Below, in pieces: positions 27,585 to 61,875 of a DNA stretch of 64,000 bases; position 1 is the first letter of the stretch, and each line of letters starts with the position of its first letter. The notes below the pieces were generated by a model, which was given only the letters and a program-made list of their open reading frames with translations, ran no database searches and was not told the origin of the DNA. The position numbers and the translations under genes are program-made. This DNA comes from Labrys monachus. Lineage in GTDB: Bacteria; Pseudomonadota; Alphaproteobacteria; Rhizobiales; Labraceae. The stretch lies in NCBI RefSeq assembly GCF_030814655.1, contig NZ_JAUSVK010000001.1, forward strand, positions 6,393,001 through 6,457,000, given 5' to 3'.

Positions 27585-28592
27585 TCAGAAGCCGCTCGCC
27601 CCGAGCGGGTGAAGCAGCGCCTCGGCCTCCGCCGCCACCCGTTCGATCTCCGCCAGCACCGCCGCCTTCGCCGTATAGTGGATCTGGTGGCCGGCGCCGG
27701 CGAGCAGGGTCAGCCGCGCATGGGGGACCATGCGGGACAGCGGCTCGGCATGAATGCCGGTGTGGACGACAGGGTCGGCGGGATCGGCGAGGATCGCCGT
27801 CGGCACGGCAATGTCGCCATAGCGTGGCGCCTGCTGCCGGAGGAAGGCCTTGAGGTCGGCGACGTCCTGGCCGTTCCAGCGGAATTCCTTCGGCCGCAGC
27901 ACCAAGGCGGCGGCGCTCTTGCGGACATAATCCGCCGGTCCGGGATGGGGAACGAACGCCTCGGCCGCCGATTTCGACAGTCCCCAGGCGCCGACGGGCG
28001 TCATCACCGTATGGACGAAGATCCGGCCGAGCACCGGCATGGCCGCCAGGCGGTAATACCAGTTGATGCCGCCGGGCCAGGGATGGGTGGCGCCGGCGAG
28101 GACGACGAGGCCGGCGACCTCCCGGGGATAGTCGAGAGCGAAATGGGCGGCGAGCGAGCCTGCCCAGGAATGGCCCACCACCACGAAGCGCCCGATGCCG
28201 TGCCGGCGCAGCGCCGCCATGATCAGCGCCGCCTGCTGCGCCGGCGAGGCATCGCCCCGCCCGCCCGGCCGGTCACTCCAGCCATGGCCGGGCCGGTCCA
28301 CCGCGATCACGCGCCGGCGCCGGGCGAGATCGGCGCCCAGCGCGTGCACCATGTCGCGCGCATTGGAGGTGGCCCCGTGGAGGAGCAGGATCGGCAGCCG
28401 GTCCGCGTCGGTGGCCCCGAGATCATACAGGTGCAGGCGCCCGCCGGGCACCTCGACGAAGACCCCCTCGGGCGGATTTTCCTCCTCGATCCGGGCGGCG
28501 ATGATCGCGGTCGCCATGATCACCGCGAGGAGATGGACGCCGACGAGGACGAAGAGGAGAAGGAGGAGAACGGTCAATCGCGGCCTGCGCAA
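27585..28592 (-). CDS. membrane-anchored alpha/beta hydrolase
   Basis: The 335-residue protein starts with one N-terminal transmembrane helix (LTVLLLLLFVLVGVHLLAVI) and then has a full alpha/beta hydrolase domain. An HGATSN oxyanion segment is followed by the nucleophile elbow GHSWAG, an acid in ADPADPVV and a histidine in GAGHQIH. The substrate cannot be deduced. It is probably downstream of, but separate from, the TPR gene on the same strand. Confidence 0.85.
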   Translation of the reverse strand: MRRPRLTVLLLLLFVLVGVHLLAVIMATAIIAARIEEENPPEGVFVEVPGGRLHLYDLGATDADRLPILLLHGATSNARDMVHALGADLARRRRVIAVDRPGHGWSDRPGGRGDASPAQQAALIMAALRRHGIGRFVVVGHSWAGSLAAHFALDYPREVAGLVVLAGATHPWPGGINWYYRLAAMPVLGRIFVHTVMTPVGAWGLSKSAAEAFVPHPGPADYVRKSAAALVLRPKEFRWNGQDVADLKAFLRQQAPRYGDIAVPTAILADPADPVVHTGIHAEPLSRMVPHARLTLLAGAGHQIHYTAKAAVLAEIERVAAEAEALLHPLGASGF

Positions 28593-55104: not shown

Positions 55105-55290
55105 GGGTCTCGTCCAAAATGAGTTCGTTCGAAATTCGGCCGTGGATATGCTTTCCGGCATAGCGCGGGCGGAAGCAAGGCGCGAGTAACGCTGTGGTGA
55201 GCACGGCGTCGCGCCGGAAATTGTGAAGAGCCGTGAAGAACGGTCATCGCCCCGGCGGGATCGGCGCCCAACGGCGATGCCTGATGGGGC

Positions 55291-56028
55291 TCAGCCCCGC
55301 TCGCCCGTTCCCGGGCGGACCGGAGGGATGTCGACCTTTTCGGGACGGCCCATCACGGAGGAGGCGATGTAGATACGGGCATAGCCTTCCTTGACGGCCT
55401 CGACGATCTGGTCGAGCCGCCGGTCGATATGCTCGCCGAGAAGGGATTTCGCACGGTCCTCGTCCCGGTCCATCGCCGCCTGGAGGATGGCGCGGTGTTC
55501 AGACTGGGTGACGCTGCGCCGGCCGTTCTCCATGTCGATCCAGCGGACGAAACGGATGCGGCCGCTGATCTTCTCCAGGAGCTGCACCAATTCGTGATTG
55601 CCGCTCAGCGCGATCATGCGGTTGTGGAAGATCTCGTCGAGTTCGACGAGATCGGCAATGGTCCGGCCCGGAATGTCGGCCGAACTGGTATCGAGAAAAT
55701 CGCGGATCGCCTCCAGATCGGGTGCCTTGGCCCGCTGGATCGCCAGTCCGATACCCGACACCTCGATGCTCTTGCGAACCTCGTAGAGGTCGAAGATCTC
55801 CTGCGGGTCGAGCGCCCGCCGGAAGAAACCCTGCTGCGGGACGAAGTCGAGATAGCCGTCGGCGACGAGCCTGTTCAGGGCTTCGCGCAGCGGCGTCCGG
55901 CTCACCCCGAGCTTTTTTGCCAGGGCGACTTCGTTGATGCGTTCCGAAGGCCGCAGCTGGAAAGCGATCGCCATGGTCGTGAGCTCTCCGTAAACCCACT
56001 CCACGGTGCTTTCCTGCTCATCAGCCAT
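55291..56028 (-). CDS. GntR-family regulator, FCD (FadR) type
   Basis: The 245-residue protein has a winged helix-turn-helix (about 12-80, with INEVALAKKLGVSRTPLREALNRLVADGYLDFVPQQGFF) and an all-helical FCD ligand-binding domain with the acidic and His residues of the metal site (LDEIFHNRMIALSGN, SEHRAILQA). I chose the ATG at 56028 because GGAGG lies six bases upstream; ATGs at 56052 and 56040 are possible. It is divergent from the MFS-ThDP cluster and probably regulates it. Confidence 0.9.
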   Translation of the reverse strand: MADEQESTVEWVYGELTTMAIAFQLRPSERINEVALAKKLGVSRTPLREALNRLVADGYLDFVPQQGFFRRALDPQEIFDLYEVRKSIEVSGIGLAIQRAKAPDLEAIRDFLDTSSADIPGRTIADLVELDEIFHNRMIALSGNHELVQLLEKISGRIRFVRWIDMENGRRSVTQSEHRAILQAAMDRDEDRAKSLLGEHIDRRLDQIVEAVKEGYARIYIASSVMGRPEKVDIPPVRPGTGERG

Positions 56029-56085
56029 GCGGGCCTCCATGCTCGCAGCCATACCATAACTGCATAGCGACCTCAAAGGACACTC

Positions 56086-56107
56086 CTGAATTTTTATCTG
56101 TATTCAG
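56086..56107. promoter_or_regulatory. candidate GntR operator
   Basis: CTGAAT (56086-56091) and ATTCAG (56102-56107) form an inverted repeat around ten A/T-rich bases in the 149-base gap between the GntR gene and the MFS gene. It is assigned by position only. Confidence 0.4.
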
Positions 56108-56177
56108 CATTGCATTTCGCGGCCGTTGTCATAAAACATCCGCCGGTCGCGCTCGAGGCGCGCTGCGGGATGGAAGC

Positions 56178-57419
56178 ATGCAAGGCTGGTTCACAGACCT
56201 GACGGCAGTCGAAAGAAGGACGTTCTGGGCCTGCTTTTCCGGCTGGGCGCTGGACGCGATGGATGTCCAGATCTACGCGCTCGCCATGCCGACCCTGATT
56301 GCGGTCTGGGGGCTGACCAAGTCGCAGGGCGGCACCCTGGCGACGACGGCGCTGGTCGTCTCCTCGCTCGGCGGCATCATCGCCGGGTTCCTCGCCGACC
56401 GGATCGGCCGCAAGAAGGTCCTGCAGATCACCATCCTCTGGTTCTCGGTCTTCACGGCACTGTCGGGCTTCACCCATTCCTTCGGCGAACTGATGGTCAC
56501 CCGCAGCCTGCAGGGCCTCGGCTTCGGCGGGGAATGGGCGGCAGGCGCCGCGCTGATGAGCGAGGTGATCCGCAAGGAATATCGCGGCCGGGCCGTCGGC
56601 GCCGTGCAGAGCGGCTGGTCCGTGGGCTATGGCGCTGCGGCCATCCTGTTCGCCATCGTCTTCTCCGTCCTGCCGCGCGATATCGCCTGGCGCGCCATGT
56701 TCTGGATCGGCCTGCTCCCGGCCGTTGCGGTGCTGTTCTTCCGGCGCAACCTCGAAGAGCCGGAGGTGTTCCTGCAGACGCGCCGCCTGCAGGAAAAGAG
56801 CGGGGCACGGGTTCGCATCGGCGAGATCTTCGAAAGGCCGCTCCTCGGCCTGACAGCGGCGGCAAGCCTGCTCGCGGCGGCCTCGCTCGGCGGCAACTAC
56901 ACCATCCTCAGCTGGCTCCCGACCTATCTGGCCGAAAGCCGCCATCTCTCGGTCCTGGGCACCGGCGGCTACCTCATCGTCAACATTGCCGGGTCCTTCT
57001 GCGGCTATCTGAGCGCCGCCCACCTGAGCGACTTCCTCGGGCGCCGCAAGACCTTCGTGATCTGCGCGATCTGCGCCGCGGTGGTGGTGGCCTTCTACAT
57101 GTTCGCGCCGATCGGCGATGTCGCCACGCTCCTGCTCGGCTTTCCGCTAGGCTTCTTCCAGTCCGGCATCGTCTCCGGCATGGGCGCCGCCTTCGCCGAG
57201 ATCTATCCGACCCGCGTCCGCGCCACGGGGCAGGGCTTTTCCTACAATTTCGGACGGGGCCTCGGCTCGCTGATCCCGGCTCTCGTCGGCGTCATCGCCC
57301 TGCCCCTGGGGCTGAACAACGCCATCGGCATCTGCGCCGCCGCCGCCTACGCCGTCGCGGTGATCGCCGCCCTCATGCTTCCCGAGACCAAAGGCAAGGA
57401 GTTCACCGCCCATGACTGA
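56178..57419 (+). CDS. MFS transporter, acid:proton symporter type
   Basis: The 413-residue protein has about 12 transmembrane segments and MFS signatures (GFLADRIGRKKVL; RSLQGLGFGGEWAAGAALMSEVI; HLSDFLGRRKTFV). The pattern suits aromatic-acid or other organic-acid:proton symporters, though substrate is inferred. The 3' end overlaps the ThDP enzyme by eight bases, so uptake and metabolism are probably coupled. Confidence 0.88.
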   Translation: MQGWFTDLTAVERRTFWACFSGWALDAMDVQIYALAMPTLIAVWGLTKSQGGTLATTALVVSSLGGIIAGFLADRIGRKKVLQITILWFSVFTALSGFTHSFGELMVTRSLQGLGFGGEWAAGAALMSEVIRKEYRGRAVGAVQSGWSVGYGAAAILFAIVFSVLPRDIAWRAMFWIGLLPAVAVLFFRRNLEEPEVFLQTRRLQEKSGARVRIGEIFERPLLGLTAAASLLAAASLGGNYTILSWLPTYLAESRHLSVLGTGGYLIVNIAGSFCGYLSAAHLSDFLGRRKTFVICAICAAVVVAFYMFAPIGDVATLLLGFPLGFFQSGIVSGMGAAFAEIYPTRVRATGQGFSYNFGRGLGSLIPALVGVIALPLGLNNAIGICAAAAYAVAVIAALMLPETKGKEFTAHD

Positions 57420-59112
57420 CGCCGCCGCCGATCCTCTCCCTGACGCCGCCCGGCGCAGCAACGCCCGGACCGGCGGACAGCTGATCGTCGACGGTCTCGC
57501 CGCCAACGGGGTGGAGCGCGTCTTCTGCGTGCCCGGCGAGAGCTATCTCGACGTGCTGGACGCCCTCCATGCGACGCCGCAGATCGATGTCGTGGTCTGC
57601 CGCCACGAGGGCGCCGCCGCCAACATGGCCGAGGCCGACGGCAAGTCGACGGGCCGCCCCGGCATCTGCTTCGTGACGCGCGGGCCCGGTGCCACGCATG
57701 CCAGCATCGGGGTGCACATCGCCTTCCAGGATTCGACGCCGATGATCCTCTTCGTCGGTCAGGTCGAACGCTCGGTCCGGGGCCGCGAAGCCTTCCAGGA
57801 GATCGACTACCGGGCCATGTTCGGGCCTGTCGCGAAATGGGCGGTCGAAATCGACGATCCGGCCCGGATTCCGGAAATCCTGGCGCGGGCCTTCCGCACG
57901 TCGATGTCCGGACGCCCCGGCCCTGTCGTCGTGGCCCTGCCGGAAGACATGCTCGCCGAGGCGGCCGCCGTCGACGACATCCTCGTCCGGTCGGCCCCCT
58001 CCGCCAGCCTTTCCGCCGGGGATATCGAGCGGATCGCCGGCCTCCTCGATACGGCCCGGGCCCCCCTCCTCATCGTGGGCGGCGGCGGGTGGACGGCGCC
58101 GCAGCGAGCGGATCTGGAACGCTTCGCCGTCGCCCACGACCTTCCGGTCGCCGTTTCGTTCCGCCGCCAGGACGCGCTCGACAATCTGCATCCGACCTAT
58201 GCCGGCCATCTCGGGCTCGGCGTCTCGCCCGCCCTGGCGCAGCTGGTGAGGACGTCGGACCTCCTGATCGTGCTCGGCTCCCGGCTCGGCGACGTCACGA
58301 CGTCGGGCTATGCGCTGCTGGACGGCCCGATGGCCACGCAGACGCTCGTCCATATCCATCCCGATCCCGACGAGATCGGCCGCGTCTTCCAGGCGCTGGT
58401 CGGGATCGCGGCCCCGGCCGGCGCCTGCCTCGCCCAGCTTGCCGCCCTGCCCGGCCGGGGCGAGCGGCCGTGGCGGCGGCGGATGGAGCAGGGCCATGCC
58501 GACTATCTCGCCTTCAGCGATCCGGCGCGAGTCACGCCGCCGGTCAGCGGCGTCGATCTCGCCCGTGTCGTCGCGCTCGTCGGCGAGCAGGCTGAAAGCG
58601 GCACGGTGATCACCAACGGTGCCGGCAACTACACCGTCTGGGTGCATCGCTTCCATCGCTTCCGCCAGGCCCATTCGCAGCTCGCGCCCACCAATGGATC
58701 GATGGGCTACGGCCTTCCCGCCGCTGTCGCGGCCAAGCTCCGCAATCCCGAGAAGACCGTCGTCTGCTTTGCCGGCGACGGCTGCTTCCTGATGTACCCG
58801 CAGGAAATGGGCACCGCCCTGGCGAATGGGGCGGCCATCATCGTGATCATCGTCAACAACGGCCGCTACGGCACCATCCGCATGCATCAGGAGCGGCGCT
58901 TTCCCGGCCGGCCGATGGCGACCGACATCCGCAATCCCGACTTCCAGCTGTTGGCCCGCGCCATGGGCGCCCATGCCGAAAGGGTCGAGGCCACGGACGA
59001 TTTCCTGCCCGCCTTCCGCCGGGCGCAGCAGGCCGGGCGGCCGGCGATCATCGAGCTCGTCACCGATCCCGACCAGTTGACCCCCGACAGGCGCATCACG
59101 CCGGCAGCGTGA
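57412..59112 (+). CDS. ThDP-dependent enzyme, acetolactate synthase-like
   Basis: The 566-residue protein has all three domains of the family: the N-terminal pyrimidine-binding domain with Glu66 in CRHEGAAANMAEA, a central domain, and the PP domain with the ThDP motif GDGCFLM...NNGRYGT (about 459-487). It could be a 2-oxo acid decarboxylase (benzoylformate or phenylpyruvate type), a sulphoacetaldehyde acetyltransferase-like or an acetolactate synthase-like enzyme; no ilvN subunit is present. It overlaps the MFS gene and the next frame. Confidence 0.88.
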   Translation: MTDAAADPLPDAARRSNARTGGQLIVDGLAANGVERVFCVPGESYLDVLDALHATPQIDVVVCRHEGAAANMAEADGKSTGRPGICFVTRGPGATHASIGVHIAFQDSTPMILFVGQVERSVRGREAFQEIDYRAMFGPVAKWAVEIDDPARIPEILARAFRTSMSGRPGPVVVALPEDMLAEAAAVDDILVRSAPSASLSAGDIERIAGLLDTARAPLLIVGGGGWTAPQRADLERFAVAHDLPVAVSFRRQDALDNLHPTYAGHLGLGVSPALAQLVRTSDLLIVLGSRLGDVTTSGYALLDGPMATQTLVHIHPDPDEIGRVFQALVGIAAPAGACLAQLAALPGRGERPWRRRMEQGHADYLAFSDPARVTPPVSGVDLARVVALVGEQAESGTVITNGAGNYTVWVHRFHRFRQAHSQLAPTNGSMGYGLPAAVAAKLRNPEKTVVCFAGDGCFLMYPQEMGTALANGAAIIVIIVNNGRYGTIRMHQERRFPGRPMATDIRNPDFQLLARAMGAHAERVEATDDFLPAFRRAQQAGRPAIIELVTDPDQLTPDRRITPAA

Positions 59113-59153
59113 TGCGTTTTCCTTCGATTGACCTGAGCAGAGGCATTTCAGCC

Positions 59154-60353
59154 ATGTCCGCAGACGAGAAAACCGATCGCAAGCCAACGGGCCGCCCTCC
59201 GGCGAAGGCGGCGGCGGTGGCGGCGATGCTTGCCGCCGGCCTGCTGTCGGCGACGGCGCAGGCCGAACCGCTGATCATCTCCGCCAATGACGGGCTGAAC
59301 CAGATGGTCGATGGGGCCTATCACGTCAGGCCGGGTGCGCAGCATGGCTCGCTCGCCGGCTTCGACGCCTCGCAGTTTCCGCCGCGAAAGCTCTGGGAGA
59401 TCCCCGCCGATCATTCGGCCGTCGGTCCGCCGGCTGGCGTCGCCGTGTCCCGCGACGGCCATTTTGCCTATGTCTCGAATCCGGCCGTGCCCGACCCGCA
59501 GCATCCGGACAAGCCCGCGGCCCCGGCCGAACTCCAGATCGTCGACCTGAAGGCTGCTCCGCCTGCCGTCGTCGACAGGCCGAAGCTCGCCACCAGACCC
59601 TGGGGCATCGCCCTGAACCGAGCCGGCACGCTGCTGCTCGCGGCGAGCGGCAAGGGTGCGGTCTATGTCCTGGTTCTCGACGGAGGCAAAGTCGTCTCCT
59701 CCGGGGCGGTCGATGTCGGCACGGAGACGGCCAGGGTCATGAGCGTGGCAATCACGCCCGACGGCAGATGGGCGCTGGCGACCAAGCGTGGCGAGAACAC
59801 CGTTGCCGTCCTCAGGATCGAGGGAACGAGCGTTTCCTATACGGGACGGGACATCACCACAGGCTCCAACCCCTACAGCGTCGTGATCAGCCCGGATGGA
59901 AGCCGGGCAGCCGTCACCGATATCGGGCGCAGTTCCGGCGATGCCGATGCCGTTACCCTCGTCGACCTGGCCTCGCCGACCTTTCACGCCGCGGGCGTGG
60001 TGCCGGTGGCGGCGACACCGGAGGCCGTCACCATCTCGCCGGACGGGCGGTTCATGGCGGTGACGTCGATCAACGGCAGCAATATCGCCCATGGCAAGCC
60101 GGGATCGTCCTCGGTGTCGCTGATCCAGGTCTTCGACCTGGCGAAGCCGCTGCCGGTCCTCGCCGCCACGGCCGAGGTGAGCGCCAACGCCCAGGGCGTG
60201 CAGTTCACGCCGGATTCGCGCCATCTGCTCGTGCAGGAATTCGCCCTCGACCGGATTTCGCTGTTCGATTTCGACGGTACGCATCTGTCCAGGCTCGAGG
60301 CGGCGCTTCCCCTCGGCGGCGGCCCTTCCGCCATCGCTGCGACCTTTCCGTGA
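59154..60353 (+). CDS. exported beta-propeller protein (YncE/lactonase-like)
   Basis: From the ATG at 59154 the protein has 399 residues with a Sec signal (AAAVAAMLAAGLLSATAQA) and about six to seven propeller blades, each marked by SPDG or NRAG turns (VSRDGHFAYVSNP; ITPDGRWALATKR; ISPDGSRAAVTD; ISPDGRFMAVTS). The frame is open from a GTG at 59109 that overlaps the ThDP stop; I prefer 59154 for its upstream GAGG. Enzymatic function is unknown. Confidence 0.82.
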   Translation: MSADEKTDRKPTGRPPAKAAAVAAMLAAGLLSATAQAEPLIISANDGLNQMVDGAYHVRPGAQHGSLAGFDASQFPPRKLWEIPADHSAVGPPAGVAVSRDGHFAYVSNPAVPDPQHPDKPAAPAELQIVDLKAAPPAVVDRPKLATRPWGIALNRAGTLLLAASGKGAVYVLVLDGGKVVSSGAVDVGTETARVMSVAITPDGRWALATKRGENTVAVLRIEGTSVSYTGRDITTGSNPYSVVISPDGSRAAVTDIGRSSGDADAVTLVDLASPTFHAAGVVPVAATPEAVTISPDGRFMAVTSINGSNIAHGKPGSSSVSLIQVFDLAKPLPVLAATAEVSANAQGVQFTPDSRHLLVQEFALDRISLFDFDGTHLSRLEAALPLGGGPSAIAATFP

Positions 60354-60463
60354 CCTGCCTCCCAATCGATTGACCTGCCGGAATGCAGGATCGATCCGCC
60401 GCCCGAAATCGAGCCTGGGGCGGATGCGACAAAGATGTGGCTCGCTGTTCCAAGGAGAAGACT

Positions 60464-60862
60464 ATGAAGACAATCATCGCACATGTCGGCGCCGCCATGC
60501 TCGCGGCCGCGGGTGTGCTCGTCCTGGCCGGCTCGGCCAACGCGGCGGATCCGGTCGGCCCGGTGACGCTCGTCAGCCACGTCGACGTGATTCCCGACGC
60601 CTATGTCGCGCAGAGCGAGGAAAAGTCGTGGGGCTTCCTCCGCACCGAGATGGCGGCGACCAAGAGCGACAAGGATCTCGTCTCCTATATCGTCCTGCGC
60701 CAGACGGACGGCCCCAACCATTTCACCATCGTCGAGACCTGGGGCAGCTACGCCGCCCTTGCCGCGCATCAGGGCTCTGCCCATACGGTGAAGTTCCGTG
60801 CGGACATCCAGCCCTATCTGGGCAGCCCATTCGACGCCCGCCTCCACCAGAATTTCGAATGA
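60464..60862 (+). CDS. exported ABM-domain (antibiotic biosynthesis monooxygenase-like) protein
   Basis: The 132-residue protein has a signal peptide (AHVGAAMLAAAGVLVLAGSANA) and an ABM-type dimeric alpha/beta-barrel domain (VTLVSHVDVIPDAYV, VSYIVLRQTDGPNHFTIVETW, HTVKFRADIQPYL). The fold occurs in small monooxygenases and haem-degrading enzymes, usually cytosolic, so the export signal is unusual. AAGGAG precedes the ATG. It probably ends the GntR-regulated cluster. Confidence 0.82.
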   Translation: MKTIIAHVGAAMLAAAGVLVLAGSANAADPVGPVTLVSHVDVIPDAYVAQSEEKSWGFLRTEMAATKSDKDLVSYIVLRQTDGPNHFTIVETWGSYAALAAHQGSAHTVKFRADIQPYLGSPFDARLHQNFE

Positions 60863-61032
60863 GCCTCGCGCCCTGCGGGCCGCTCCGGCGCTCCGCAGGG
60901 GCATATTCCTGAAGCCTTGCGCGCACCGGTCGCCGAGGGGGACCGATCGAGGCGCCGGGTTCCGCCGGGGCCTCGGCTGTGCCGGCGCCTCCTGCTTGCC
61001 GTGCCCATCCGGCGATGCCATTGTCTCGGCCG

Positions 61033-61875
61033 ATGGGGCTCATCAATTTCCTCTGGCGCGTGATCCAGCGCTATGTCGCGCATGACGGCTATGCGATGGC
61101 GAGCCATATGGCGCTCTCGACCCTGACGGCCCTGTTTCCTTTCCTGATCTTCGTGACGGCGCTGGCCGGCCTCGTCGGTACCGCCGGCCTGCAGGAGGAG
61201 ATCGTGCGCCTCCTGTTCGACAGCTGGCCGCACAGCGTGGCCAGCCCGATCGCCGAGGAGGTCGTCAACGTGCTGGGCTCCTCGCACCCGGGCCTGGTGA
61301 CGCTCAGCGCCATCATCGCCGTGGTGCTCGCCACCAACGGCATCGAGGCCATCCGCATCGGTGCCAACCGGGCCTACGGCCTCGTCGAGACGCGGTCCTT
61401 CTGGCGGTGCCGGCTGCAGAGCCTCGTCTTCGTGCTCGTCGCCGCCCTCGCCCTCATCACGCTGGCCCTGTTCGTGGTGCTGTGGCCGGTGATGTGGCGC
61501 AATGCGCTCGCCTATCTGCCCTTCCTGGCGGCGTTCGCCTTCGTCATCGAACTCGCCCGCTACGGCATCACCGTCGTCGTGCTCGGCGGGGCGATCATCC
61601 TGATCCATCTCTTCCTGGTCGCAAGCCGGCCGCGCTTCTGGACGATCTGGCCGGGCTCGCTCGTGACGCTGGGGCTGTGGCTCGCCGGCGGGGAGCTCTT
61701 CAGCCTCTACATCACCAATTTCAACACCTATTCGAAGCTCTATGCCGGCCTCGGCGGCGTCTTCGCCGCGCTGTTCTTCCTGTGGCTGGTGGCTGTGGCC
61801 TTCCTGCTCGGCGCCGAAATCAACGCGCTGCTGGCCGAGGGCCGGGCGGAGCGGCGCGCGCGCCGGCGCCCCTGA
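61033..61875 (+). CDS. YihY/UPF0761-family membrane protein
   Basis: The protein has about six transmembrane segments and the YihY pattern (DGYAMASHMALSTLTALFPFLIFVTALAGLVG; FYSKLYAGLGGVFAALFFLWLVAVAFLLGAEINA-like end). The family was once named ribonuclease BN, but that activity was not confirmed; its function is unknown. The start is uncertain: ATG at 61033 is chosen by alignment, while ATG 61015 and GTG 60979 are in frame. Confidence 0.82.
   Translation: MGLINFLWRVIQRYVAHDGYAMASHMALSTLTALFPFLIFVTALAGLVGTAGLQEEIVRLLFDSWPHSVASPIAEEVVNVLGSSHPGLVTLSAIIAVVLATNGIEAIRIGANRAYGLVETRSFWRCRLQSLVFVLVAALALITLALFVVLWPVMWRNALAYLPFLAAFAFVIELARYGITVVVLGGAIILIHLFLVASRPRFWTIWPGSLVTLGLWLAGGELFSLYITNFNTYSKLYAGLGGVFAALFFLWLVAVAFLLGAEINALLAEGRAERRARRRP

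Follow-up and report, generated by a model that had tools for sequence, protein, structure and literature searches.

The mandelate pathway combines the FMN hydroxy-acid dehydrogenase MdlB, the ThDP-dependent benzoylformate decarboxylase MdlC and the aldehyde dehydrogenase MdlD. The route that we propose for a gene cluster of Labrys monachus would follow the same order of conversions, from 2-hydroxy acid to 2-oxo acid, aldehyde and acid, and close relatives of its ThDP enzyme adjoin FMN hydroxy-acid oxidases or aldehyde dehydrogenases, whereas the cluster itself encodes a ThDP enzyme of the subfamily PRK08199 and no oxidase or dehydrogenase, and adds an ABM-domain protein and a propeller that are predicted to be exported. 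The acetolactate/acetohydroxyacid synthases are the best solved relatives of this enzyme and have the ThDP fold and motifs in common with it, but the enzyme misses their model TIGR00118 and carries other residues at the acceptor site. Excerpts of a report on the gal operon of P. putida describe GalT as an MFS gallate transporter (PMC9942251). Compared with the operon as presented in these excerpts, the MFS protein studied here is sister to transporters of gallate/4-oxalomesaconate clusters and one relative cluster (L153) contains a tannase-family esterase, but our cluster has a ThDP enzyme instead of a gallate dioxygenase or LigK-type aldolase. Literature searches on the gene combination found no description of it; the combination is new, while its individual parts are of known kinds.

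The window, by which we mean the whole 64-kb stretch of DNA analyzed (bases 6393001-6457000 of one 6.92-Mb contig), contains the following features:

55291..56076, minus strand: GntR/FCD-type transcriptional regulator, divergent from the operon (FCD, PF07729, 86.7 bits; GntR, PF00392, 50.1 bits; both above cut-off)
56077..56177, no strand: divergent intergenic region, presumed operator/promoter from its position between the divergent genes
56178..57419, plus strand: MFS protein, proposed organic-acid importer (PF07690, MFS_1, 160.8 bits)
57412..59112, plus strand: ThDP-dependent enzyme, NCBIfam subfamily PRK08199 (820.6 bits, cut-off 539)
59109..60353 (alternative start ATG 59154), plus strand: beta-propeller protein, predicted exported (PF10282, 46.2 bits, cut-off 21.7)
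60464..60862, plus strand: ABM-domain (dimeric alpha/beta-barrel) protein, predicted exported (PF03992, 29.4 bits, cut-off 23.1)

All five ORFs are real, and the ORF listing and Pfam bear out the placement given by an earlier sequence-only reading, with the GntR gene divergent from MFS-ThDP-propeller-ABM and the ABM start as the sole correction. Its spacings of 8, 41 and 110 bases are likewise right if the ABM gene is counted from ATG 60464: the MFS and ThDP genes overlap by 8 bases at the junction ATGACTGA, the propeller ATG 59154 leaves a 41-base gap (the GTG start at 59109 gives a 4-base overlap with the ThDP gene), and 110 bases separate the propeller gene from ATG 60464, which is preceded by AAGGAG. 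Translation of the ABM protein most likely begins at this ATG; a start at 60383, which would give a longer ORF, is improbable. A single transcript over the four genes was dropped as a claim, since a sigma-70-type promoter scan of both strands of 55200-61050 gave no match and terminator-like sites in this region numbered 3 versus 2.2 expected. An inverted repeat, TGAAT-N10-ATTCA, was spotted by eye between the divergent genes (window positions 56087-56106); it might be a GntR site or a product of chance. According to Pfam, the cluster is flanked by a DUF1223 protein, a BrkB family protein and a second MFS protein, none of which recurred with the cluster in the first 80 ThDP loci, and these genes were left out of later tallies.

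The ThDP enzyme belongs to the ThDP superfamily (PF02776, PF00205 and PF02775, TPP_enzyme N, M and C) and carries the catalytic Glu (E66) and the GDG...NN motif (GDG at 455-457, NN at 482-483), both conserved in the alignment with acetolactate synthases. A literature search by the accession PRK08199 found no paper, and the NCBIfam entry assigns no function. Among named candidates, sulfoacetaldehyde acetyltransferase (Xsc) was rejected (PRK07525, 246.7 bits against a cut-off of 620), as were the other named ThDP equivalogs among the listed models, which scored under their cut-offs. The enzyme might instead be a carboligase, akin to acetolactate synthase or tartronate-semialdehyde synthase, with an imported acid or aldehyde as the substrate of the condensation. 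Indeed, among solved structures it matches acetolactate synthases best (237 bits), above the 134.9 bits of 7orx, named 'probable benzoylformate decarboxylase', and HpaI-type aldolases, enzymes that make or use acids of the pyruvate type, lie near some relatives. Acetolactate synthase itself was nevertheless rejected, because TIGR00118 gave 343.4 bits against 538.35 and the alignment places V295 and H492 where acetolactate synthases carry the Arg and Trp of the acceptor site, which we take to be binders of the second substrate. Together with the aldehyde dehydrogenase found beside the ThDP gene at 4 of 23 close loci, this makes a carboligase distinctly improbable, and the condensation that the earlier reading had offered as an alternative to decarboxylation is weakened. 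Since the acetolactate-synthase model is missed and both residues are replaced, the sequence speaks, short of proof, for simple decarboxylation rather than ligation of the acetolactate type.

The MFS protein scores 217.4 bits with TIGR00895 (aromatic acid/H+ symport) and misses its cut-off of 418.55, as do its relatives from gallate clusters, which score about 200. In a tree of 66 rows, pruned of duplicates, fragments and copies of the window itself, the window is sister to a clade of ThDP-paired transporters (support 97/87), and the sister of both, with 100/97 for the whole, is a clade that contains MFS proteins of gallate/4-oxalomesaconate clusters. Neighbors in this gallate-type clade are a gallate dioxygenase at L207 (PRK13367, 791 bits, cut-off 412) and the 4-carboxy-4-hydroxy-2-oxoadipate aldolase LigK at L198 and L205 (403 and 379 bits, cut-off 304.5); such a marker is present in 7 of its 16 rows within the stretches inspected, several of which have 1.5-kb flanks only. 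Two rows of the paired clade, L169 and L206, had no ThDP gene within the inspected regions (L197 and L206). From this phylogeny we infer that the MFS protein brings an acid into the cell.

Plasmid searches retrieved adjacent MFS (55% identical) and ThDP (56-59%) genes in Paraburkholderia and Caballeronia. In 398 genomes of the family of G406, the genome of locus L049 (Caballeronia hypogeia), the MFS protein had a match at E<=1e-120 in 274. The regions inspected were 18, mostly best-scoring, of the ranked MFS loci, plus L153 and L154; the MFS gene is accompanied by a ThDP gene in L153, L154, L191-L194 and L199, and in L201 the ThDP gene is reversed relative to it, the two being separated by genes for an aldehyde dehydrogenase and a LysR regulator, while no ThDP gene was found near the MFS gene in the remaining 12 of the 18 regions. 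The 8-base overlap is kept at ten Burkholderiaceae junctions (L086, L087, L098, L153, L154, L191-L194 and L199), where the ThDP start overlaps the MFS stop within ATGTCTGA or ATGTCTAA, although these are not ten independent cases, because L086 and L098, and likewise L193 and L194, are near copies. With this overlap in ten other loci, and with propeller, ABM, MFS and ThDP genes together in L153, the cluster exceeds chance. On Burkholderia glumae plasmids (L099), a 53.5% identical MFS gene adjoins LysR and RHS-repeat genes and is interrupted by an IS5-type element in several records. The ThDP tree, whose 85 rows come from the window and 93 loci (omitting genes that the crude ORF caller missed or called at a length outside 500-700), places the window on a long branch within a 20-row set that holds all 10 pair rows present, with a support of 99 by the quick SH-aLRT method.

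Both downstream genes have signal-peptide-like starts (...GLLSATAQA/EP in the propeller, ...LVLAGSANA/AD in the ABM protein); export, here and for the relatives' exported proteins, is predicted from such starts as judged by eye. The PF03992 match covers only profile positions 32-77 of 78, the PF10282 match is split into two stretches, and a single-sequence structure model of the propeller was unusable (pLDDT 52). An ABM protein is listed in a periplasmic fraction of Novosphingobium, though without a cleaved signal, which makes it weak support (PMC3608174). A genome of the window's order encodes an exported-looking protein with two tandem ABM-like stretches (L158:3874-4683).

The earlier reading had staked its case on a linkage of the exported genes to the ThDP enzyme in other genomes, and this linkage is found in another class of Proteobacteria. 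Locus L153 (Burkholderiaceae) holds ThDP, MFS, propeller and two predicted-exported ABM genes inside about 6 kb, in the order tannase-family protein, alpha/beta hydrolase, ABM, propeller, ABM and LysR, with MFS and ThDP divergent; its propeller is 45-47% identical to that of the window, some of whose residues are shared with this homolog only, its hydrolase and tannase-family esterase are predicted to be exported, and the nearest solved relatives of the latter (PF07519, 386.8 bits) are MHET hydrolase and feruloyl esterases. ABM genes without a propeller lie beside MFS-ThDP at two further loci: on a Caballeronia grimmiae plasmid (L087), genes for a solute-binding protein, an ABM protein and an alpha/beta hydrolase related to 4f0j (425 bits) are divergent from the pair, and in L154 two ABM genes accompany a 3-keto-disaccharide-hydrolase-domain protein and a solute-binding protein. 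This linkage emerged only from the ABM-based and MFS-based searches; the 80 ThDP loci closest by identity showed no propeller, no ABM and no close MFS gene (best MFS match 27% identity).

A different explanation would be that propeller and ABM protein are hitch-hiking envelope proteins whose only tie to an independent MFS-ThDP operon is a common promoter. They are present at a minority of the 12 pair loci (the window, ten pairs and L201; L199 stops at a contig edge), with ABM at 4 and the propeller at 2, so the exported genes are not needed for the core. L150-L152 keep a trio of alpha/beta hydrolase, exported-type ABM protein and lone family-3 solute-binding protein with no ThDP gene nearby, which also speaks for hitch-hiking. 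Against it stands the linkage in the window and in L087, L153 and L154. Given at least 8 pair loci and 12 ABM matches among the 398 genomes, chance would by a rough calculation bring both together within 20 kb at 0.0007 loci of the Burkholderiaceae sample, versus 2 seen, and L087 and the window are further linkages outside it. We regard hitch-hiking as very improbable, and the exported proteins of the earlier reading may be an optional part of the route.

ABM matches occurred in 4 of 397 genomes of the window's order, the window itself among them, and a two-sequence ABM profile matched 9 of the 398 genomes of the G406 family. No close syntenic copy of the cluster is apparent in the genus, since three of four other genomes gave propeller matches of at most 34% identity and the ABM search in these four gave none. 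Five plasmid homologs of the propeller (29-36% identical) were examined, all in other surroundings. One of the five, from Caballeronia insecticola, nevertheless represents a second propeller-ThDP neighborhood (L081:6944-15086), since genes for a D-glycerate dehydrogenase, an MFS protein, an aldehyde dehydrogenase and a distantly related ThDP enzyme lie near it. An alpha/beta hydrolase homolog (44%) in the window's own genome adjoins neither ABM nor ThDP genes. The kinds of gallate-pathway and tannase-type protein queried gave no match in the 64-kb window apart from one weak 71-residue hydrolase match (28098-28313), and a tannase search of the whole genome gave none, its control being equally silent.

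The neighbors of close ThDP relatives bear on the type of reaction. We set 23 loci of the ThDP group that contains the window (L002, L013, L062 and L199, which have no usable tree row, were placed there by 58-62% identity) against the 70 other ThDP loci. As a description of the two groups and not a blind test, because the queries were chosen from these loci after inspection, and with counts that are lower bounds because the loci differ in length but are inflated by near copies, FMN 2-hydroxy-acid oxidase was found at 4/23 versus 0/70 loci, an Ldh_2-type dehydrogenase (name read by eye) at 3/23 versus 0/70, HpaI-type aldolase at 5/23 versus 0/70, and the aldehyde dehydrogenase that adjoins the ThDP gene in L098 at 4/23 versus 0/70, whereas a second, general aldehyde dehydrogenase query gave 2/23 versus 15/70, DadA (name read by eye) 0/23 versus 8/70 and aminotransferase AT1 0/23 versus 9/70. 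The identities of FMN oxidase, aldolase, aminotransferase and aldehyde dehydrogenase come from scans or annotation. A D-2-hydroxyacid dehydrogenase query matched at none of the 23 close loci, and hydroxy-acid oxidase and L098-type aldehyde dehydrogenase never occurred together at one of the 93 ThDP loci. These neighbors suggest that the ThDP enzyme decarboxylates a 2-oxo acid to an aldehyde.

GntR genes 53-54% identical to that of the window were found at 6 of the 80 ThDP loci. Moreover, among the plasmid homologs (10 examined of the 15 best, 42-51% identity), 7 of 10 lie beside a divergent ThDP enzyme of another subfamily, as against none of five remote controls (of 20 listed, 27-32%), the ThDP queries including proteins from three of the ten examined loci; three such enzymes that were compared are about 27% identical to that of the window. 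For two of the ten no ThDP neighbor was found, and the homolog at L212 adjoins an indolepyruvate ferredoxin oxidoreductase gene. In Bradyrhizobium, a GntR orthologue is followed by an ORF that by eye resembles the alpha part of a phosphonopyruvate/sulfopyruvate-type ThDP decarboxylase (L011:11761-13293), so that one regulator is flanked by two ThDP enzymes. In Ruegeria (L209, L214 and L215), a GntR relative lies beside a different ThDP enzyme and an aspartate/glutamate racemase, in L209 also near pta and a sulfate exporter. Because GntR homologs adjoin ThDP enzymes and the Burkholderiaceae pair loci mostly carry LysR instead, the cluster in the window seems to have changed its regulator but retained its type of enzyme.

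The neighbors at GntR-sharing loci indicate amino-acid-derived 2-oxo acids, not phenolics, so that the same architecture might serve an aliphatic or amino-acid-derived 2-oxo acid. Orthologs with 53-54% identity occur with PRK08199-type ThDP genes near a DadA-like oxidase, an aminotransferase, a racemase and an amino-acid ABC transporter (several named by eye), and L194 carries HpaI-type aldolases and a BhcA-like aminotransferase (330 bits, cut-off 650). These GntR-sharing loci nevertheless fall in other ThDP clades, the DadA, AT1 and D-2-hydroxyacid dehydrogenase queries match none of the 23 close loci, and the MFS protein is sister to gallate-cluster transporters, which leaves such a substrate possible but rather unlikely.

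Our preferred reading, to which we give a tentative probability of about 45%, is that these genes form a mobile cluster with mandelate-like logic for the catabolism of an organic acid (most likely a hydroxy or oxo acid, phenolic or otherwise). Beyond the inner membrane, exported proteins would release or alter a compound; here these would be the propeller and the ABM protein, to which relatives add an alpha/beta hydrolase, a tannase-family esterase, a solute-binding protein of family 3 and a protein with a 3-keto-disaccharide-hydrolase domain. The resulting acid would be imported by the MFS protein, as its phylogeny suggests, and, being a 2-oxo acid or oxidized to one, would be decarboxylated by the ThDP enzyme to an aldehyde, for which the neighbor genes argue. 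An aldehyde dehydrogenase annotated as NADP-dependent may finish the route in some relatives; the kinds of hydroxy-acid oxidase and aldehyde dehydrogenase queried gave no match in the 64-kb window, and oxidation of the aldehyde and of any hydroxy acid would here rely on genes elsewhere. The divergent GntR/FCD regulator would sense the acid or an intermediate. The earlier proposal of a compound altered outside, imported and decarboxylated fits the tannase-family protein, the alpha/beta hydrolase, the gallate-cluster sister transporters, the hydroxy-acid oxidases and the aldehyde dehydrogenase. In a more specific version, which we consider doubtful, a phenolic ester or lactone would be processed redox-wise or hydrolytically in the periplasm by an exported ABM family with a propeller or hydrolase partner, and the product would pass to a dedicated MFS-ThDP pair that travels between alpha- and betaproteobacteria with a change of regulator, LysR in the latter and GntR here.

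If the preferred reading is true, it would provide a function and a substrate class for PRK08199, a large ThDP subfamily lacking an assignment, as well as a case for ABM-domain enzymes acting outside the cytoplasm and a catabolic cassette apparently passing between bacterial classes. Even if the cluster turns out to be ordinary, a regulator, an importer and a decarboxylase would still be assigned to one pathway.
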